This document shows, one piece after another, positions 19,398-36,920 of a stretch of DNA of 64,000 nt (the stretch's first letter is position 1; each line of letters begins with the position of its first letter). This DNA comes from Sporocytophaga sp. Lineage in GTDB: Bacteria > Bacteroidota > Bacteroidia > Cytophagales > Cytophagaceae. Below the pieces are notes generated by a model. It searched no databases, was not told where the DNA came from, and saw only the letters and a list, made by a program, of their open reading frames with translations. The stretch lies in the NCBI GenBank assembly GCA_024707265.1, contig JANQAB010000003.1, positions 682,001 through 746,000 on the forward strand, written 5' to 3'. A program made the position numbers and the translations under genes.

Positions 19398-20033
19398 ATG
19401 AACCTTTCAAAACTAACAACTATACTACTATTACTTTCTTCTTTAAATTTATCTGCCCAATCAGAAAATCACATAAATGAAGAAATCCGATCTTCTGAAT
19501 ACAAGCCTGGCAAGATTGTTACCCTGAAGGATACAATTAAATGCTTTATACTTGAGAGAGGAAACGACTATTATTTTAACGGAAATATTAAATACAAACT
19601 TCAACCCGGCGATGCTAAAACATTAAAGATAAAATCTAAAGACATTTTTCACCTCTCTTTAGATAGCATTGCCTCATTTGACAGGCTTCCGTATGGGCCA
19701 TTATCCTACCTGATGGTTAAACATGTTGACGGAGATGTAAAACTTTATGAGACGGCTGTAGATGGCTTTGATGATTATGGCACCTACAGCAATGGTGGCT
19801 TAAACACTACTAACAATCCGAATCTCGACAGATATTTTCTTGTAAGGGAATCATTGATCATCAGAGTTTCGAGAAGAATGTCAATTTCAGATATAAAGAA
19901 AATCTTCCCGGATGACAATGAATTTCTGAAGCAATATGAAAAAACGGATTATCAGAAGTTTTTAAAAAATATAAAACAATTAGTTATTAACTATAATAAT
20001 AATGTTAAATCAAAATCTGAAAATCATCAATAA
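19398..20033 (+). CDS. Secreted protein, tandem paralogue 2
   Basis: This 211-residue protein has a signal peptide ending near LNLSAQ, then the shared core: GKIVTLKDTIKCFILER with the conserved Cys, NIKYKL, LKIKSKDI, FDRLPYG, VDGDVKLYE and a C-terminal KKIFPDDNEF...INYNNN region. It is closest to paralogue 3. It follows paralogue 1 by 52 nt. The GKIVTLKDTI strand recalls many Bacteroidota secreted proteins with repeated beta strands, but I cannot assign a function. Confidence 0.85.
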   Translation: MNLSKLTTILLLLSSLNLSAQSENHINEEIRSSEYKPGKIVTLKDTIKCFILERGNDYYFNGNIKYKLQPGDAKTLKIKSKDIFHLSLDSIASFDRLPYGPLSYLMVKHVDGDVKLYETAVDGFDDYGTYSNGGLNTTNNPNLDRYFLVRESLIIRVSRRMSISDIKKIFPDDNEFLKQYEKTDYQKFLKNIKQLVINYNNNVKSKSENHQ

Positions 20034-20103
20034 CTGATACCATCAACGGAACGTACTTTCAGATAGACATAATAAAACCTGTTCTTTCATTTTTTAACAC
20101 TCC

Positions 20104-20760
20104 ATGCTTTCTAAAATTTACTTACTTCTGTTGGTATTTTTATTCATTGCCAATACACTTTATGCTCAAACTCCGAATCACATAGATGATGAGCTTCCAC
20201 CGATTAGCTATATATACAAATCAGGAAAGCTAATTACAATTAAGGATACCATTCCTTGCTTTATACTGGATAGAGATAACGACTACTACAACAAAGGAAA
20301 GATTAAATATAAAATATCATCTGATGCTTCAAAGCCATTAAAAATAAAATCTAAGGATATACTGCATCTAGAAATAGATGGCTATCCTCCACTAGACCGG
20401 TTTTCATTTGGTACTAAATCTTACCTATTGGTCAGGCTTGTTGATGGAGAGGTAAAAATCTATGGAGGAGAAGTTGAAAGTTTAGGTTTTAATACAACAA
20501 TTCCCAGTAGTGGAATGCCATATGCTCCCCAACCTATCTATACAAAAAACAAATCATACAAACGGTTCATCGTTAGAGGGAAAATGTTCTATGAAATAGA
20601 TCGTATAAATAAATATCAGGCAAAGAGAATTTTCTTCGATAACGCGGAATTGAATAACGAAATTGAAAATTTAACTGATCAGCAAATTTTAAAAAACATA
20701 CAGCTATTAGTTCAAAGGTATAACCATTCTCTTAAACTCAATACGAATGAAAGTAAGTAA
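20104..20760 (+). CDS. Secreted protein, tandem paralogue 3
   Basis: A 218-residue paralogue with signal peptide (ends near LYAQ). It has GKLITIKDTIPCFILDR, KIKYKIS, LKIKSKDILHLEID, LDRFSFG and VDGEVKIYGG, then a C-terminal helical part. It shares the DTIxCF motif with its neighbours. Its 3' end overlaps the following membrane-protein gene by 14 nt, which suggests co-translation. Function unknown. Confidence 0.85.
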   Translation: MLSKIYLLLLVFLFIANTLYAQTPNHIDDELPPISYIYKSGKLITIKDTIPCFILDRDNDYYNKGKIKYKISSDASKPLKIKSKDILHLEIDGYPPLDRFSFGTKSYLLVRLVDGEVKIYGGEVESLGFNTTIPSSGMPYAPQPIYTKNKSYKRFIVRGKMFYEIDRINKYQAKRIFFDNAELNNEIENLTDQQILKNIQLLVQRYNHSLKLNTNESK

Positions 20761-21259
20761 TAAGATGCTCATTGCAGCAATCGCTATTGGTTTTGTGACA
20801 ATAACTTTCAACATTATGTTTGAAAGCGATGATTTAAAACGCTGGGCAAATCTTGCAGAAGTCACTGCAGAATATGCAGGTTTTTATCTGCTTTATAAAA
20901 ACGGGACTTTCAAAGAATCCCCACTGTTTAGATTCACAAGTATATCCATAGCAATGGTTTTTATTGGAAGCATCTTAAAAATAATGCATTGGCCAGGTGC
21001 AGGTCCGGTTATTGGACTTGCCATAATCTCAATTGTCGTATTATATTCCGTTCATTTTAATTCGAAACGTCCCAAACAAGTATTAGACTGGGGAAAATTA
21101 CTGATTCTGATTTTGGTACTTTCAGGACGATCGTTTCGTTTCTTTCACTGGAAAAATGGTTATGAGTTACAATACATATCTACCTTTGCATTTCTGTGCT
21201 TTATACTTTATTACATAATAACCAGCCTGAAATCAGGAAGTTTATCTTTGGATAATTGA
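20747..21259 (+). CDS. Small integral membrane protein with HWPGAG motif
   Basis: The 170-residue protein has about five membrane helices and the sequence ILKIMHWPGAGP in the middle. The KIMHWPGAG motif is found in GldL and other Bacteroidota membrane proteins, but the length and lack of the GldL cytoplasmic tail argue against GldL itself. It overlaps paralogue 3 and precedes paralogue 4, so it likely works with this secreted family, for instance as a membrane partner. Function is not known. Confidence 0.65.
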   Translation: MKVSNKMLIAAIAIGFVTITFNIMFESDDLKRWANLAEVTAEYAGFYLLYKNGTFKESPLFRFTSISIAMVFIGSILKIMHWPGAGPVIGLAIISIVVLYSVHFNSKRPKQVLDWGKLLILILVLSGRSFRFFHWKNGYELQYISTFAFLCFILYYIITSLKSGSLSLDN

Positions 21260-21362
21260 TCCTCTTATCAAGTTATCATTTTCAGATCTTAGGTTTTCAA
21301 ATACTATTATAGAAATTTCAGTTTCATACTTTTAATAAATAATCTCAACCTAAAATTATATC

Positions 21363-22023
21363 ATGCGACTTTTTTTAATTCAACTTATCTTTCTATTTCT
21401 AATCAGTTTAATGCATTTGTCAAGTCAGGCTCAGGACGATTTATATGGTGAGCCCAGAAAAAAAAAGTGATACTGTAAATGTTAAACAGAAAGAACCATA
21501 TATACAGGGTAAAATTGTTACTATGTCTAATGAGACAATCAATTGCTTTATCTACAATCAAGAGCGTTACTATGAAGGAAAGATAAAGTACAAAGTAAAT
21601 ATTGATGATAAGAAAATACTGAAAATAAAACCAGAGAAAATACAACATTTATCAATTGATACTGTCACTTATGACAGGGTTTATTACGGAAGTTATTCTT
21701 TTCTTATGTTAAAACTGGTGAATGGACCTGTAAAGTTATATGATAATATTTCTCTAAAATCGACAGGCCCTGTCTTACTGCCTTTCGGTTCCCCTTCGAG
21801 TATCACATTTATTGAGAGGCGTTGTTATATTGTAAAAAACAGCAATGTTTATAAATTATCACGCTATACATTCAGAGATGATCTTAAAAAAGTGTTCGCT
21901 GGCAATGAAACATACTTAAAGCTCTTAGCAGAAATTAAGTATGGTGATTTTATTAAAGATTTAGAAAAAATTATATCTGGCTATAATGATGAATTATTAA
22001 AAGGAACAATGCTTTTGCATTAA
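21363..22023 (+). CDS. Secreted protein, tandem paralogue 4 (frame disrupted after signal peptide)
   Basis: The core (from 21445) has GKIVTMSNETINCFIYNQ with the conserved Cys, KIKYKVN, LKIKPEK, YDRVYYG, VNGPVKLYD and the C-terminal LKKVFAGN...SGYNDE region of the family. Its signal peptide is in another frame: the ATG at 21363 starts a hydrophobic leader ending in SSQAQDD, then a run of nine A (21458-21466) shifts the frame. Removing one A joins both into a 219-residue protein. Without the repair, translation from 21445 would give a protein with no export signal. Confidence 0.75.
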
Positions 22024-23723: not shown

Positions 23724-24054
23724 TTAGATTTTTTTGATATTGAATAGAAAAAAACACATCAGAATCTTTGTCTTACATGATAATTTGGACCTTGCTTGAC
23801 AAAGAGCACTTGAACTTGGAAATAATGCAGCTGATAGACCCAAACTATCAAAATAAGAATTGATCTCCTTCTGGTAAGAACCATTATCTTTCTGTAACAG
23901 AAAGATTATCAGGTCTGAAAAATTAAAAGCTCGATCTCTTGTAAAATTATTTACCGACAGTCTATTACGGTCGATAAAATTTTCTTCATATATTTGCGTG
24001 GTAAGGTTTTCAAGGACTTTACAAGTTACTTTACTATGAGAAGCTCCTATTACG
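23724..24054 (-). pseudogene. Remnant of an IS4-type transposase N-terminus
   Basis: The minus strand from about 24054 to a stop at 23724 encodes a stretch that resembles the N-terminal domain of IS4-family transposases: YEENFIDRNRLSVNNFTRDR, then LIIFLLQKDNGSYQKEI, then ALCQARSKL, which matches the usual FxRxR / fLLn / AFsqARkKL pattern. There is no start codon in the expected place and no DDE catalytic domain, so it is a fragment. It lies in the gap 23683-24147. It probably marks an old insertion followed by deletion. Confidence 0.65.
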
Positions 24055-24147: not shown

Positions 24148-24594
24148 ATGATTATTAAAAGACAGTATGACAAAATTCAAACAATTATAGACCAGATAAA
24201 GTCTAAACAACTTGTTCTTATTTCTGCAAAAGATGAAGCTATCAATGCTATTTCCCCGCAATTTAGAAATGATTTTGATAATGCCTTTGGCGCTAACCTT
24301 AGAAATCTTGGATTCCGACAATCCTATATAGCTGTTTTTCACAATGGCAAACTTGTTAATGAATCCATTGGTGCGAACAATTTGGTTGAATATTGGGGAC
24401 AATTTTATGACCTTAATTTTTACGTTAAAAGCGCAGGCGCATCTCAGGGAAATGAGTCAAATATTAAAATCAACAACATAGAATTTTCACCAAACAACCG
24501 AGGATTAAATGTTGTTTCACTTGAAGAAGCTTCTCCTGGCAAATTTATCTTTAATTCCTTTAATTTTGATACCTACGAAAAATCGTATCAATAA
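24148..24594 (+). CDS. ILEI/FAM3-like protein with the two halves in swapped order
   Basis: The 148-residue protein matches the interleukin-like ILEI (FAM3) fold in pieces. Residues about 10-78 (LVLISAKDEA...LGFRQSYIAVFHNGK) resemble the C-terminal half of ILEI domains (GTIVLMxxxDE...NLGFRDNWVF). Residues about 89-145 (FYVKSAGASQG...NNRGLNVVSLEE...NSFNFDTY) resemble the N-terminal half (FxxxSGxA...RGINVALxxG...FDM). The halves are thus in the reverse order. Either it is a circular permutant or a slice of a tandem-domain gene. A stop precedes the ATG. No signal peptide is seen. Function unknown. Confidence 0.6.
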   Translation: MIIKRQYDKIQTIIDQIKSKQLVLISAKDEAINAISPQFRNDFDNAFGANLRNLGFRQSYIAVFHNGKLVNESIGANNLVEYWGQFYDLNFYVKSAGASQGNESNIKINNIEFSPNNRGLNVVSLEEASPGKFIFNSFNFDTYEKSYQ

Positions 24595-26576: not shown

Positions 26577-27926
26577 ATGAATCACAGTCAAATCATTGAT
26601 TTCATAGAGCAGAATTCTATTCAGAAAATAAAATTTGCGTTTACTGATATAGATGGTGTGCTTCGAGGGAAAATTATCCATCGTGACAAATTTCTGAAAG
26701 GCCTTAAGGAAAACATAGGCTTCTGCGATGTCGTGTTTGGGTGGGATAGCGGAGATGCTTGTTATGACAATGTTAAAGTGACAGGATGGCATTCAGGATA
26801 TCCTGACGCTCCCTGCGCTATAGACCTTTCTACTTTCAGAAAAATTCCATGGGAAAATGATCTCCCATTCTTTATTGCAGATTTTAGCTGTAAGCCTTTG
26901 GCAGCTTGTCCGAGAAGCTTATTGAAATCAATAGAGAAACAATGCATTGAAATGGGCTTTCATGCCGAGTTTGCTCAGGAATTCGAATGGTTTAATTTTA
27001 GAGAAACGCCACAAACATTAAAAGAGAAAGAGTTTACCAAACTCAATCCCCTTACTCCTGGCATGTTTGGATACTCCGTCTTAAGACCTTCATATGAAAC
27101 TACCTATTATCACAATCTCTTTGATTTACTATTAAAATTTGATGTACCTCTGGAAGGGCTTCATACCGAAACGGGGCCTGGAGTTTATGAAGCAGCTCTG
27201 CTCAGGGACAGTGTTTTAAATGCAGCAGACAAAGCTTCATTATTCAAAACAGGTGTGAAAGAAATTGCTTACAAAAATGGTATCATGGCTACATTCATGG
27301 CTAAATGGAATGAAGAACTACCCGGATGTAGCGGACATATCCACCAAAGCCTTTGGAGTCTCGACAAATCAGACAACCTTTTCTTTGACCCAGTTAAAGA
27401 AAATAAAATGAGTGACCTTTTTAAACAATATCTGGCTGGCCAACTTTATTGTCTTCCATTTATTCTGCCAATGTATGCCCCTACCATTAACAGCTACAAA
27501 AGACTTGTTGAAGGTGCCTGGGCTCCTACAACCATTACCTGGGGAATTGATAACAGAACAACTGCTTTGCGTGTATTAAATACCTCAAAAGACCTGACAA
27601 GACTAGAAACCAGAGTTCCCGGCTCAGATAGCAACCCTTATCTGGCAATGGCTGCTGCACTTGCTTCCGGGCTGTATGGAATAAAACATCAACTGAAACT
27701 TGAGGCCTTACCAACAGAGGGAAACGGCTATAAAAATCTTGAGAACGGCAAACTACCATCTAACCTTCTAGAGGCAAGTCTGGCAATGAAAAACAGTCCT
27801 GTTGCTGTAGAACTCTTTGACTCTGCATTCGTCGACCACTTTGTCAGCACTCGAGAATGGGAATGGAGACAATTTTCTAAGCACGTTACAGATTGGGAAT
27901 TAAAAAGATACTTTGAAATCATTTAA
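26577..27926 (+). CDS. Glutamine-synthetase-family ligase
   Basis: The 449-residue protein has the two-domain glutamine synthetase fold. The N-terminal beta-grasp part includes FAFTDIDGVLRGK. The catalytic domain shows ETGPGVYE (metal ligands), GCSGHIHQSL, NSYKRL, NRTTALRV and RLETRVPGSDSNPYLA. All the usual active-site residues appear present. The beta-grasp form and the GPGVYE variant place it with the GlnA-like/gamma-glutamyl-amine ligases (PuuA, FluG-type) rather than with assimilatory GlnA. It is followed by a kinase-like and a HAD gene in the same direction, so it may make a gamma-glutamyl or related amide that those enzymes process. Confidence 0.8.
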   Translation: MNHSQIIDFIEQNSIQKIKFAFTDIDGVLRGKIIHRDKFLKGLKENIGFCDVVFGWDSGDACYDNVKVTGWHSGYPDAPCAIDLSTFRKIPWENDLPFFIADFSCKPLAACPRSLLKSIEKQCIEMGFHAEFAQEFEWFNFRETPQTLKEKEFTKLNPLTPGMFGYSVLRPSYETTYYHNLFDLLLKFDVPLEGLHTETGPGVYEAALLRDSVLNAADKASLFKTGVKEIAYKNGIMATFMAKWNEELPGCSGHIHQSLWSLDKSDNLFFDPVKENKMSDLFKQYLAGQLYCLPFILPMYAPTINSYKRLVEGAWAPTTITWGIDNRTTALRVLNTSKDLTRLETRVPGSDSNPYLAMAAALASGLYGIKHQLKLEALPTEGNGYKNLENGKLPSNLLEASLAMKNSPVAVELFDSAFVDHFVSTREWEWRQFSKHVTDWELKRYFEII

Positions 27927-27986
27927 TCATACCTGCTAAATATTTTAAAATTACCTTACAGACAAAGGGAATTAATAACTCTGAAA

Positions 27987-29030
27987 ATGAAAATTATAGA
28001 TTACTCTCTAATTATAAAAGAAGCCTGGAAAAACTTTGATGCATCCAAAACCATTTCTAAAATTGAAGATATCAGCGCAAAGGTTTCTACTAATCACGTG
28101 TTCAGAGTAACCTTTGACGATGAAGATTTAATTATAGCCAAGCTATCTTATTTTGGAAAGTATGAACACTTCAAAGAAGACCACAGACTTATCCATGCCC
28201 TATCAAATAATCTGCTCTTTCCCTTTGAAAATGTACTGGCCAAATCGCTCGTCAAAAACAACAAGGTATATACTTACAGATATCAGGAAAAACTTACAGA
28301 TGCATGGGTTGTATTTTACAATCCCATACGCGTTATGGAAAAGCTCCCAAGGCGATTAGAAGAGGAACATATTATCAAGCTCGGAAGAGAGATTGCTAAA
28401 TTTCATAAAGCCTGTGCCAAAGTAAAAAACGTACTCCCCAAATCTTCCAAAACACTTGTGTCAGATATCGAACATCTCCTTGAGATCCTTGATACTGAAG
28501 ATGGACAATATGAGCACAGAATGCATGTTGACTACCTAAGAAATCAGTGTAAAACTTTTCTCAAGAATATTGAACTGCTGAATTATAAATCCTTTGAAAA
28601 CATTCCAGTCTTTGTAGATTGGAACATTGGAAATTTTTCTGTAACAGATAAACTTGAATTATTCTCCCGCTGGGACTATGACTGGTTTAGGATGAGCTCA
28701 AGAGTATTAGACTTCTATTTTTTCAGCAGAGTCGTTTCAGATATTGGAGACAGAACAGTATTCAGTTATGTAATAGGACCATTAATGGAAGACAGATTTA
28801 TTCTTTTCCTGAAAGAGTATCATAAAGTATTTCCACTTACAAGAAATGAAATTCTTTTCCTGAAAGAATCATACAGATTCTTTATTTTGAATTATGTAAT
28901 CAAGCATGGTAGATACTTCTTTCATGAGATATATGCAACCAAACTTCAAAGAGAAGCTTATGAAACCTACTTCCCTTCCATAGAAAAAGAATTCAATGCA
29001 GATAGAATCTTAAATGAGCTTCAATTATAA
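27987..29030 (+). CDS. Aminoglycoside-phosphotransferase-like kinase
   Basis: The 347-residue protein resembles the APH/choline-kinase fold. A nucleotide-binding N-lobe is plausible (VFRVTFDDEDLIIAKLSY). The catalytic loop reads VFVDWNIGNFSV, keeping Asp and Asn of the usual HxDxxxxN but lacking the His, and the metal-binding motif is RWDYDWF in place of IDW. It should phosphorylate a small molecule; the substrate is not known. It lies 60 bp after the GS-like gene and 61 bp before the HAD gene. Confidence 0.7.
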   Translation: MKIIDYSLIIKEAWKNFDASKTISKIEDISAKVSTNHVFRVTFDDEDLIIAKLSYFGKYEHFKEDHRLIHALSNNLLFPFENVLAKSLVKNNKVYTYRYQEKLTDAWVVFYNPIRVMEKLPRRLEEEHIIKLGREIAKFHKACAKVKNVLPKSSKTLVSDIEHLLEILDTEDGQYEHRMHVDYLRNQCKTFLKNIELLNYKSFENIPVFVDWNIGNFSVTDKLELFSRWDYDWFRMSSRVLDFYFFSRVVSDIGDRTVFSYVIGPLMEDRFILFLKEYHKVFPLTRNEILFLKESYRFFILNYVIKHGRYFFHEIYATKLQREAYETYFPSIEKEFNADRILNELQL

Positions 29031-29091
29031 CCATTAGAACACGCAATAGAGATCTTTACCTTTACTTATTACTTAAAACTTATTACTCAAA

Positions 29092-29943
29092 ATGGTGCAA
29101 TTACAAGATTTCAAATCCATCGTTTCAAAATACAAGGTCATATTTTTTGATGCATTTGGAGTTTTGAAAAATTACAAGGGTTTGATACCAGGCATAGAAC
29201 ACACTTTTAATTATCTCCAGGAACAGAATAAAGACTACTTTATTCTCACCAATGATGCATCCAGAAGTCCTGCACAGCTTGCCGAATCATACCATAAGCT
29301 GGGACTTTTTGCAATCACTCCTGATAGAATAATTTCATCCGGAATGCTGGCTAAAGAATATCTTGACCTTAAAGTCAGCCATGGCACCGTAGCTTATCTT
29401 GGAACTGAAAACTCTGCTCATTATATAGAAAGATCTGGACTAAAAACCTTACCAATCAGCCAGCTTGAACTTGATAATATTGCAGAAGTGAATGCTCTTG
29501 TATTGCTTGATGATGAAGGTTTCGACTGGAATAAGGATTTGAATAAAACTATAAACCTGCTTCGTAACAGAAATATTCCTGTGATAGTCGCTAACACAGA
29601 TACAACTTATCCTGTCTCTCAATCACAGGTTGCCATTGCTATAGGGGGAGTTGCTGAATTGATTGAAAATGTTGTCGGAAAGAAATTTATCAGATTTGGA
29701 AAACCAGACTCGCAGCTTTTCAACTTTGCATTTGAACATGCTTGCAACAATTGCCTGGTAGATAAAAATGATATACTAATGGTTGGAGATACCCTGCATA
29801 CTGATATAATGGGCGGAAACAAATTTGGCTTCGACACTGCATTAATACTTACCGGAATAACTCAGCCAGAAATGGCGGAACAATATATCAGAAGTACAGG
29901 CATTATTCCAACATATATTTGTGAATCAGCCGTTATCAGATAA
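29092..29943 (+). CDS. HAD-IIA-type hydrolase (NagD-like) with altered motif I
   Basis: The 283-residue protein is a HAD superfamily member with the cap type IIA. Motif I is FFDAFGVL; the phosphatase consensus DxD is D-A-F here, so the second Asp is replaced by Phe. Motif II/III are seen as FILTNDASRS and GKPDSQLF, and motif IV as MVGDTLHTDIMGG. The missing acid is a feature of haloacid dehalogenases and a few HAD-IIA subgroups, so it may not act as an ordinary phosphatase. Third gene of the GS-like/kinase-like cluster. Confidence 0.8.
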   Translation: MVQLQDFKSIVSKYKVIFFDAFGVLKNYKGLIPGIEHTFNYLQEQNKDYFILTNDASRSPAQLAESYHKLGLFAITPDRIISSGMLAKEYLDLKVSHGTVAYLGTENSAHYIERSGLKTLPISQLELDNIAEVNALVLLDDEGFDWNKDLNKTINLLRNRNIPVIVANTDTTYPVSQSQVAIAIGGVAELIENVVGKKFIRFGKPDSQLFNFAFEHACNNCLVDKNDILMVGDTLHTDIMGGNKFGFDTALILTGITQPEMAEQYIRSTGIIPTYICESAVIR

Positions 29944-31933: not shown

Positions 31934-33361
31934 TTAAGCAGCTTTCAACTTCAGTTTTTTAATTAACTCCTGCATGGTTGCATTGAACTTTCTGTCAGTG
32001 TCCATTAAGTCGTTTACTGATGTTAAAGCATGTATAACGGTACTGTGATCTCTGTTTCCAAAATGGAAACCGATTGATTTCAATGAAAGGTTAGTATATT
32101 CTTTTGCAAAATACATAGCAACCTGTCTTGCTATCACAATCTCTCTCTTTCTTGTTTTCGCTTTAAGAGAATCAACAGTCACGTTGAAGAATTCGGCAAC
32201 AAATTTCTGGATATAATCTATACCCACTTCCGATTCTATGTTTTGAACTATGCTCTGCAGTGTCTGCTTCGCAAGTTCAAGATCAATTTCTTTCTGAGTT
32301 AAAGAAGATTGTGCAATCAAAGAGATTAATACACCTTCTAACTCTCTTACGTTGGTATCTATACTGTAAGCAAGGTACTCAACAACGCTGTCAGAGATTT
32401 CTACACCTTCAGACTGCATCTTTTTGCGAATGATCGCAATTCTTGTTTCAAAATCAGGCTGCTGCAGATCTGCAGTTAAACCCCATTTGAATCTGGATAA
32501 TAATCTTTCCTGTAATCCTTTCAAATCTTTTGGCGGGCAGTCGCTCGTCATAATGATTTGCTTACCTGATTGGTGCAGGTGGTTAAAGATATGGAAAAAT
32601 ATCTCCTGAGTTTTTTCTTTACCAGACAGGAATTGTACATCGTCTATTACCAGTACATCTACCTGAAGGTAGAAATTAGCAAACTCCTGGGTATTGTTGT
32701 TTTTAATTGCATCAAGAAATTGATTCGTAAATTTCTCTGATGATACATAAAGAACAAATTTGTCAGGACTGTTTTGCTTAATTCTGTTTCCTATTGCCTG
32801 TACAAGGTGGGTTTTACCTAAACCTACACCTCCGTAGATCATCAATGGATTGAAAGATGTTACTCCCGGTTTGTTAGCAACTGCATACCCGGCCGAACGC
32901 GCAAGTCTGTTACAATCTCCCTCAATAAACGTGTCAAAAGTATAGTTTACATTTAACTGTGAACTGAACGAAAACCTATCCAGCCCTTTTAAATCAAACG
33001 GACTCTTAACGGTCTGAGGAGCGTTATAATTTACATTTTTTGCATTACCATTCGGTTTTCCCTGAACCTGGTTCACAAAAGATTTGGATTGCTCTGATTC
33101 TTTTTCCATCATCAGAGAATATTCCAGCCTTCCGTCAGCGCCCAGTTCAGTATCAATCGCTCTCCTTAAAACCTGAACATAATGCTCTTCAAGCCATTCA
33201 TAAAAAAACTGACTAGGAACCTGAATTGTCAAAACGTCATTCTGTAACATTACTGGGATTATAGGTTCGAACCAAGTTTTAAAACTCTGCTCGCCTACAC
33301 TCTCCTTAATGATACGGAGACAGTTGTTCCACACTGTTTTACAGTCTTTTACAATTAGCAT
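31934..33361 (-). CDS. dnaA: Chromosomal replication initiator DnaA
   Basis: DnaA binds the origin and melts DNA in the ATP form. The 475-residue protein has an N-terminal interaction domain (about 1-90), a variable linker, the AAA+ domain with Walker A GGVGLGKTH and Walker B VLVIDDVQFL, and the C-terminal DNA-binding domain with RDHSTVIHAL. The upstream 290 bp (33362-33652) shared with mutA is AT-rich. I see no cluster of DnaA boxes there, so an origin at this spot is not evident. Confidence 0.97.
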   Translation of the reverse strand: MLIVKDCKTVWNNCLRIIKESVGEQSFKTWFEPIIPVMLQNDVLTIQVPSQFFYEWLEEHYVQVLRRAIDTELGADGRLEYSLMMEKESEQSKSFVNQVQGKPNGNAKNVNYNAPQTVKSPFDLKGLDRFSFSSQLNVNYTFDTFIEGDCNRLARSAGYAVANKPGVTSFNPLMIYGGVGLGKTHLVQAIGNRIKQNSPDKFVLYVSSEKFTNQFLDAIKNNNTQEFANFYLQVDVLVIDDVQFLSGKEKTQEIFFHIFNHLHQSGKQIIMTSDCPPKDLKGLQERLLSRFKWGLTADLQQPDFETRIAIIRKKMQSEGVEISDSVVEYLAYSIDTNVRELEGVLISLIAQSSLTQKEIDLELAKQTLQSIVQNIESEVGIDYIQKFVAEFFNVTVDSLKAKTRKREIVIARQVAMYFAKEYTNLSLKSIGFHFGNRDHSTVIHALTSVNDLMDTDRKFNATMQELIKKLKLKAA

Positions 33362-33652: not shown

Positions 33653-34780
33653 GTGGAACATTCAACGTCTCTAAACAGCCTATTCCAAAAAACAGATAAA
33701 AACCTGTGGATCAACAAAATAAAAGCAGAATTAAAGCTTCAGGATCTTAATTCTTTAGTCTGGAATACAGGGCTAAATATAAATATCGAACCATTTTATA
33801 CCAAAGCAGATTTAAGCCGTATAAAGGTGTCATTTTTTGACAAAAATTTTGGCAATTGGAAAGTGGTCTATAAAATCAATTTCGTGGACTTAAATTCCCT
33901 TAAAAAAGAAATTGAAAAATCAAAAAAATTCAATGCAGATCATATAGAAATTTCAATCCGGGATAGCAAAAGTTTTAGTTTGAGTTCTATCAAAGAATTA
34001 TTAAAAGACCTTTCATTTACCATTGAAATCTCTGAGAGTGGGCAAAAAGAAATTTGGGGAAATATCCCATCTGGCAGTTTTTTAAATCTCTGTTCCAACA
34101 CTTATTTAAAAGAAAAGGATGATATCATCCATAATTTGTCCAAAACGTTTTTAAAAAACGATTCAACAAGTTCTTTTTTAGGAATTTCTGAGCCAAATGA
34201 GGACCCTGGAACTGAATTAGCTGATTCTCTTGCCAGAGCTGTTGAATATTTTGATCTCCTCACAGAAAAGGGAATCTCCGAAGCAGTCATATTATCCAAT
34301 ATTCATTTTCATACGTCCATTGGTGAAAACTTTATCATAGAAATATCCAAACTGAGAGCTTTCCGATCTCTTTGGAATAAATTAAAGGCACTTCTTCTGC
34401 CTGGAAATTCAGTTTATACAAATTTTCATTCAGAACTGATTCCATCAAAGTCATCTGTTAAAAGTGAAAATGATGAAATGATTGCCAATACTGTTCAGTT
34501 TGCAGCTGCGATTCTAGGTAATTCTGATTTTATTAAAATAAACAGCCAAACATCATCGACTGATTCCGTTGCGGAAGAGTTTTATCAAAGAGTACGTTTA
34601 AATATTGCTCATATATTAAGAGAAGAATCTTTTATGGATAAAGTTATGGATCCATTAGCCGGTTCTTACCTCATAGAAACTGTTACTTCAAAAATAAGCG
34701 AAATAGCCTGGGAGAAATTTAAAGCAATTGAAGAGACAGGTGGTTATTCGGAAGCAAAACGTAAAAGAGCAGTCAAATAA
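33653..34780 (+). CDS. mutA: Methylmalonyl-CoA mutase small subunit (short form)
   Basis: MutA is the non-catalytic partner of the B12 enzyme that interconverts methylmalonyl-CoA and succinyl-CoA. The 375-residue protein has [20 protein letters not shown] at the N-terminus and the TIM-barrel part, ending shortly after [12 protein letters not shown] and EETGGYS. It lacks the degenerate B12-binding domain of about 600-residue MutA proteins; short beta subunits of this kind occur in Bacteroidota. A GTG at 33653 is the only start near the conserved N-terminus. mutB starts 4 nt after its stop. Confidence 0.87.
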
Positions 34781-34784
34781 AATT

Positions 34785-36920
34785 ATGAAACCAGACTTTT
34801 CAAAAATACAGTACCATCAACTCCCTGATCCATCTTCTACAACAAATAAGGAGAAGGAAGTTTGGTTGACTTCAGAACAAATACCTGTAAAAAATCTATT
34901 TACCATTATAGACGGTGAAAGCTTTATCTATGATGATTATCCTGCAGGAAGCCCTCCTTTCCTTAGAGGGCCATATGCCAGCATGTATCTGGGAAAGCCC
35001 TGGACTATCCGCCAATATGCGGGTTTCTCCACAGCTGAAGAATCAAATGCTTTTTATAGAAGGAACCTGGCGGGAGGACAGAAAGGTTTATCAGTAGCAT
35101 TTGATCTTCCGACACATAGAGGATATGATTCTGATCATCCGAGAGTTACCGGAGATGTTGGAAAGGCTGGAGTAGCTGTTGATTCAGTCGAAGATATGAA
35201 AATACTCTTCGAAGGAATTCCTTTGGATCAGATGTCAGTCTCTATGACAATGAATGGTGCGGTTATCCCCATCTTAGCATTTTACATAGTTGCTGCGGAA
35301 GAACAAGGTGTGCCTCCGTCAAAGCTTAGCGGTACTATTCAAAATGATATATTAAAAGAGTTCATGGTAAGGAACACATATATATATCCTCCGCTTCCAT
35401 CCATGAAAATCATTGGGGACATTTTTGAATATACTTCTCGTCATATGCCTAAGTTTAACTCTATCAGCATAAGCGGTTATCATATGCAGGAAGCCGGAGC
35501 TACTGCAGATATTGAGCTTGCTTATACATTGGCAGATGGATTGGAATATGTTCGCACTGGCTTGAAAGCTGGTATCGACATTGACGACTTTGCACCAAGA
35601 CTTTCATTCTTCTGGGGAATAGGAATGAACTTCTTTATGGAGATCGCCAAGATGCGAGCCGGCCGTTATCTCTGGGCTAAGATGCTGAAAGAATTTAATC
35701 CGAAAAATGAAAAGTCACTTGCATTAAGAACACATTGTCAGACTTCCGGCTGGAGCCTGACAAGACAGGATCCTTTTAATAATATTACAAGAACCTGTAT
35801 TGAAGCCATGGCTGCAGTGCTTGGCCATACACAGTCATTACATACCAATGCACTTGATGAAGCACTTGCGCTGCCTACTGACTTTTCTGCTAAAATAGCA
35901 CGTGACACTCAACTATATCTTCAAAAGCACACAGATCTTTGTAAGTACATAGATCCATTCGGTGGCTCATACTATCTGGAATATCTGACAAATGAGCTTA
36001 TAGTTAAAGCTGAAAAACTCATCAGTGAAATTGAGGCTCATGGAGGAATGGCCAAATCAATAGAGGCTGGAATTCCACAAAGCAGAATAGATCAGGCAGC
36101 AGCAAGAAAACAAGCACGTATTGATTCTGGCCAGGATATCATAGTTGGAGTTAATAAATATGGTGTTGAAGAAGAAGGTAAACTTGATCTTCTTGAAGTA
36201 GACAACTCTCAGGTAAGAGAAAAACAAATTGACCGCCTTGCCAGAATCAAAGCCCAGCGAAACGAAAAAGAGGTACTTATTGCTTTGGATGCCATTACCA
36301 ATTGTGCTCAGGCAGGAAAAGGTAATCTTCTGGAACTAGCTATTGAAGCGGCAAGGAAAAGGGCCACATTAGGAGAAATATCAATGGCAATGGAAAAAGT
36401 TTTTGGAAGACATAAAGCTATGACTAGAACTACTTCAGGAATTTATGGAAGAGAATCTTCTGACACAGGCAACATGGACAAAGCTCGTGCACTTTCTGAT
36501 CAATTTGCTTCGATGGATGGAAGAAGGCCGAGAATTATAATTGGAAAACTTGGACAAGATGGTCACGACCGTGGAGCCAAAGTAATTGCAACAGCTTTTG
36601 CTGATCTGGGCTTTGACGTTGATCTTGCTCCTTTATTTCAGACACCTGAAGAACTTGCGCGCATGGGAGCTGAAAGTGATGTACATATAATAGGTGTATC
36701 AAGTCTTGCAGGTGGACATAAAACACTCATTCCCGAATTAATCGAAGCACTGAAAAAAATAGGAAGGGGTGATATAATGGTTGTTGCCGGAGGAATCATT
36801 CCACCGAAAGATTATGATTTTCTTTATGAGAAAGGAGTATCAGGAATCTTTGGACCGGGGACAGTTATTGCGATTGCTGCGCAGGATATACTTAAAAAAC
36901 TTATTAATGAAAATACTTAA
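34785..36920 (+). CDS. mutB: Methylmalonyl-CoA mutase large (catalytic) subunit
   Basis: MutB carries the coenzyme B12 and substrate sites. The 711-residue protein shows the catalytic TIM-barrel ([29 protein letters not shown]-like [24 protein letters not shown]) and a C-terminal cobalamin domain with the lower-ligand motif DGHDRG near residue 590. I chose the ATG at 34785, which follows mutA and starts the conserved N-terminus. It ends at a strong terminator. MeaB at 57620-58609 is its likely chaperone. Confidence 0.97.

Follow-up and report, generated by a model that had tools for sequence, protein, structure and literature searches.

We analysed a window of 64,000 nucleotides of Sporocytophaga sp. 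DNA (contig JANQAB010000003.1), in which three complete genes follow one another:

26577..27926, plus strand: glutamine-synthetase-like gamma-glutamyl ligase (GS), 449 aa, complete ORF, PF00120
27987..29030, plus strand: orphan kinase of the APH/choline-kinase superfamily (KIN), 347 aa, complete ORF, AlphaFold2 model
29092..29943, plus strand: HAD-IIA protein (HAD), 283 aa, complete ORF, TIGR01460 and TIGR01459

From the ORF calls, the gaps are 60 bp between GS and KIN and 61 bp between KIN and HAD, all on the same strand. The initial annotation had described these genes as complete, in one direction and about 60 bp apart, encoding a full glutamine-synthetase-like ligase, an APH-like kinase with a VDxxxGN loop and a HAD-IIA protein with DAF in place of DxD; every one of these points was borne out by the ORF calls and by the profile and model comparisons given below. 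No Rfam match was found between positions 24000 and 31000 of the window. Elsewhere the window contains a series of ORFs for related, secreted proteins some 200 aa long (19398-22023, YKxGKIVTLKDTIxCFI...) that are seemingly genus-specific, and an ORF (24148-24594) matching the ILEI (interleukin-like EMT inducer) domain PF15711, an odd name for a bacterium. A dnaA-like gene on the minus strand (31934-33361) precedes a pair of plus-strand genes for methylmalonyl-CoA mutase subunits (33653-36920), a neighbourhood that recurs in related genomes of the genus.

In the Pfam profile search, GS matched PF00120 with 300 bits across the full profile. With the NCBIfam equivalog models it scored 212 bits for glutamine synthetase (cut-off 429) and 175 bits for the gamma-glutamylputrescine synthetase PuuA (cut-off 650). 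GS resembles PuuA in aligning at full length as a glutamine-synthetase-like ligase, but its score is so far under the cut-off that a PuuA identity was rejected. The residues contacting metal, ATP and glutamate are retained (E135, E137, E198, E205, H254, H256, R309, R327, R332 and R346), and the column of the flap Glu327 of true glutamine synthetases is occupied by W315, a Trp being found there in 43/43 triad sequences. The flap Glu is Phe in GlnA4 and Trp in PauA7, a change that makes room for larger amines at the ammonia site (PMC6529630). GS displays both residue features of GlnA4-like enzymes, namely conserved catalytic residues and an aromatic residue at the flap Glu position. Its best PDB match after the GS-like structure 11zs was 5dm3, which we take to come from an ethanolamine cluster of Chromohalobacter. 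A housekeeping glutamine synthetase was also rejected as the identity of GS, because of the score below the cut-off, the absence of the flap Glu and the fact that the genome has two PF00120 genes besides that of the triad.

KIN lies under the detection level of the Pfam APH family and gave no Pfam match. An AlphaFold2 model built from 38 relatives (pLDDT 90.8) adopts the APH/choline-kinase fold, with a Z of 21.8 across 312 residues to 6sum and of about 20-22 to APH/choline-kinase folds overall. K52, the D211-N216 loop (VDWNIGN, with D211 and N216), D230 and D232 are invariant in the 38 relatives, and KIN was placed in the superfamily on its fold, its catalytic Asp-Asn loop and its ATP Lys. AmiN, NahK, homoserine kinase and aminopropanol kinase tied as fold matches (Z about 20, 11-15% identity), and no greater closeness of KIN to ethanolamine or choline kinases than to the remaining APH-fold families emerged. 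Since many families tie, the fold gives no substrate, and a substrate assignment on this basis was rejected. KIN shares with AmiN, NahK, aminopropanol kinase and LicA an almost full-length fold, the catalytic Asp-Asn loop and the metal-binding Asp, but differs from them by its low identity (11-15%), by a Val in place of the HxD histidine and by the lack of a known paralogue. Sequence and profile searches of the PDB and a plasmid search with KIN returned no match, and no weaker relative or recognisable paralogue was detected down to an E-value of 1e-3 in the KIN-bearing genomes. The KIN of a Sporocytophaga MAG is 95% identical to that of the window.

HAD scored above the cut-offs of both TIGR01460 (137.7 bits for 100.2) and TIGR01459 (112.2 bits for 103.8). 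The nucleophile D20, T53-N54, K204, D233 and D238 are invariant, and the second Asp is replaced by Phe, so that the window protein reads DAFG and not DxDG. A D[AS][FY]GV motif is present in 117/117 readable relatives; HAD and these relatives differ in this from the canonical HAD-IIA phosphatases NagD and chronophin, which carry the DxD pair. HAD is about two-thirds identical, over nearly its full length, to the Cytophaga-type solved structure 2HX1 (67-71% among close relatives), a structure that, like the HAD-IIA proteins of TIGR01459 type, has no assigned function and on which nothing relevant was found in open-licence papers. The closest characterised relatives by sequence are pyridoxal-phosphate phosphatases. 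HAD variants in which the acid/base Asp is replaced use better leaving groups or carry out other chemistry. For HAD, the missing Asp points to a substrate whose leaving group is good, to a slow turnover or to another proton donor.

The three families were then surveyed in a sample of 395 Bacteroidota genomes; as the genomes counted are related, p-values on the counts are descriptive and overstate independence. KIN was detected in 42/395 genomes and HAD in the same 42, in one copy each and in two classes. HAD adjoins KIN on the same strand in 120 of 121 KIN loci, the contig ending in the remaining one, and GS is found within 5 kb on the same strand in 75 of the 121. The order GS-KIN-HAD on one strand is kept in 74/74 complete triads, with median gaps of 68 and 52 bp. 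Their flanks vary: any other gene family adjoined the triad in at most 8 of the first 41 loci. The initial annotation had made its reading depend on such a neighbourhood survey and on the three genes being linked in other genomes; linkage was indeed found, in two classes and with unrelated flanks. That the genes are neighbours without common function, GS being a housekeeping glutamine synthetase, is consequently very improbable: descent alone can keep gene neighbourhoods, but this reading must contend with the unrelated flanks in two classes, with the perfect co-occurrence of KIN and HAD and with the features of GS listed above. In the loci lacking GS, the genes at its position (among them a Mur-ligase-like and a CPSase-like ORF) vary from locus to locus and were rejected as a hint to the substrate.

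A linked GS was missing in 8 of the sampled KIN-HAD genomes. One of them (G181) encodes a ligase of the catabolic clade described below, 6 encode a second type of ligase, and in the last one (G256) no ligase of either type was found. The second type is 33-38% identical to the window GS, forms its own clade in the tree and has 11zs and 5dm3 as nearest structures. It is encoded with an SDR, an ALDH and an amidotransferase in most of the genomes read, and twice with an ethanolamine permease; SDR, ALDH and amidotransferase are also the genes accompanying the ligase in the Streptomyces glnA4 cluster (PMC6529630). Taking both types together, a ligase is present in 41/42 KIN-positive versus 14/353 KIN-negative genomes and, counted by genus, in 18/18 versus 13/153. 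For Dyadobacter, Runella and other genomes with an unlinked KIN-HAD pair, we predicted an unlinked ligase before searching for it. Consistently, exactly one ligase was recovered in 44/44 further named genomes with KIN-HAD (window clade in 20, second type in 24), a set overlapping the 395-genome sample by one or more genomes. The Dyadobacter ligase belongs to a GS-SDR-ALDH(-amidotransferase) operon and that of Runella stands alone. The association is unidirectional, in that ligase operons can be found in the absence of KIN-HAD, but KIN-HAD hardly ever in the absence of a ligase. Replacement of the ligase arose in several genera. It is a plausible, if tentative, reading that KIN-HAD is a fixed pair whose genome must also encode a ligase of the gamma-glutamyl-ethanolamide type, whether linked or unlinked.

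The substrate of the ligase was approached through GS of the same clade outside KIN-HAD loci, which are 60-66% identical to the window GS (61-64% in seven sampled genomes). In 7/7 of these genomes the operon comprises genes for an ethanolamine permease-like protein, an Fe-alcohol dehydrogenase (Fe-ADH) and an aldehyde dehydrogenase, the permease scoring above the TIGR00908 cut-off in the 7 checked. A PuuD-like hydrolase (Peptidase_C26, PF07722), at least partly readable, is present in 6/7; an ORF on the opposite strand occupies the hydrolase position in L186, and L181 yielded a long ALDH frame but no hydrolase ORF of its own. Operons combining permease, GS-like ligase, Fe-ADH, PuuD-like hydrolase and ALDH were observed in Bacteroidota at L097:7268-13393, L181-L186, L222 and L223, the ethanolamine catabolic gene set being full in L097, L181-L185 and L223 and partial in L186 and L222. 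They probably encode the ethanolamine gamma-glutamylation route with an alcohol dehydrogenase different from the SDR of Streptomyces. In the tree, the seven catabolic GS group together (98/92) on a short branch of 0.11, next to or inside the triad ligases. The invariant residues of triad and catabolic GS agree, consistent differences being limited to positions 255 and 348, neither of which is an aligned catalytic position. As the active-site residues match, the substrate class of the triad GS is likely to be an ethanolamine-type amino alcohol. The substrate, given as unknown in the initial annotation, is in this way narrowed for the ligase by operon context and active site, while those of KIN and HAD can only be proposed from it.

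The triad GS resembles the ligases of ethanolamine gamma-glutamylation (GlnA4 of Streptomyces coelicolor, PMC6529630; MED193_10046 of Phaeobacter, PMC10132767) in lacking the flap Glu of the ammonia site, and its sister clade is encoded with permease, dehydrogenases and gamma-glutamyl hydrolase. The triad differs from that route in having a kinase and a HAD protein instead of a linked permease, dehydrogenase or hydrolase: no ethanolamine transporter, alcohol or aldehyde dehydrogenase, or gamma-glutamyl hydrolase accompanies GS in the window. Moreover, at the thresholds used, Fe-ADH and SDR orthologues of the gamma-glutamyl-ethanolamide route were absent from 13/13 linked-triad genomes tested, the sole Fe-ADH relative being a distant one (31%) in G002. 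Several triad genomes encode an ethanolamine permease with EutB/EutC and are predicted from these genes to degrade ethanolamine otherwise. In these genomes the triad would not be the ethanolamine-degrading route, and its amine might differ. With the dehydrogenases absent from triad genomes and EutBC in use in some, we considered it unlikely that the triad is the ethanolamine-degrading route.

Conserved order in two classes, single-copy co-occurrence and ligase replacement argue for a shared pathway. We tentatively favour one in which a gamma-glutamyl amino alcohol is made by GS, phosphorylated on its hydroxyl by KIN and dephosphorylated by HAD. GS would first join the gamma-carboxyl of glutamate to the amine of ethanolamine or of a close amino alcohol, as in the ethanolamine gamma-glutamylase route; this predicted reaction is well supported. 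KIN would next phosphorylate the hydroxyl of the product, where the known route uses an alcohol dehydrogenase, a step suggested by the absence of Fe-ADH and SDR orthologues in triad genomes. Finally, HAD may hydrolyse the phosphate of the KIN product or of a downstream compound. The gene of a gamma-glutamyl cyclotransferase (PF06094) lying divergently to GS in Mucilaginibacter also speaks for this scheme. Against it, a kinase and a phosphatase sharing one compound would cycle futilely if neither regulation nor an intervening, missing step kept them apart. More specifically, and more doubtfully, kinase may have replaced dehydrogenase in a branch that yields a gamma-glutamyl-O-phospho-amino-alcohol, hydrolysed or cleaved by a HAD with an aromatic residue for the acid/base Asp. 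The initial annotation had supposed that the set makes and processes a gamma-glutamyl or phosphorylated small molecule: the shared pathway and gamma-glutamyl intermediate hold up, and the action of KIN and HAD on that product is conjectural. In line with its statement that it knew of none, searches of open-licence papers found no described pathway with this gene set and, under the names tried, no paper on phosphorylated gamma-glutamylethanolamine.

KIN and HAD could instead act on the free amino alcohol, KIN making phosphoethanolamine, HAD returning ethanolamine and GS sharing the pool, so that phospholipid headgroup turnover is set against nitrogen assimilation. Ethanolamine, choline and aminopropanol kinases do have the fold of KIN, the nearest characterised relatives of HAD are phosphatases of pyridoxal phosphate, and the ligase requirement fits equally. 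We nevertheless regard this as unlikely, given that ethanolamine kinases are no closer to KIN than the other families and that KIN-HAD pairs without any GS, linked or unlinked, which should be useful alone, are nearly absent.

Among the nitrogen compounds that membranes release, ethanolamine is a major one; it is known to undergo ammonia-lyase cleavage, gamma-glutamylation with subsequent oxidation, or phosphorylation. If the favoured pathway is correct, gamma-glutamylation-phosphorylation would be a further fate, carried by a single-copy module in two Bacteroidota classes, and would provide candidate substrates for two orphan families, one of kinases and one of HAD proteins, the latter with a crystal structure (2HX1). 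The enzyme types are familiar and the parts of known kinds; the module itself appears undescribed in the open-licence literature.

A last reading concerns the fate of the gamma-glutamyl group. In 33 loci, a GGACT gamma-glutamyl cyclotransferase (PF06094) adjoins GS, divergently and within 400 bp in 29 of them, which fits removal of this group. In butirosin synthesis, a gamma-glutamyl protecting group is added by BtrJ and then removed by BtrG. Similarly, GS might add a temporary protecting group to another amine, such as an amino sugar or aminopropanol; KIN and HAD would alter the protected compound, and GGACT would deprotect it. NahK being among the top fold matches of KIN, ethanolamine being already degraded by EutBC in some triad genomes, and the window's genome encoding one GGACT, away from the triad, are compatible with this scheme. 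It is still quite unlikely, as the GGACT linkage is confined to Mucilaginibacter-type loci (L066:4556-4969 and 32 similar ones), the active site of the triad GS is the same as in ligases encoded with an ethanolamine permease, and the triad GS is replaceable by another ethanolamine-type ligase. In Mucilaginibacter-type loci, a type II glutamine synthetase often lies beyond GGACT. Several of them (L067, L069, L140, L148 and others) also contain an ORF of about 130 aa between GS and KIN, with relatives elsewhere (L088).
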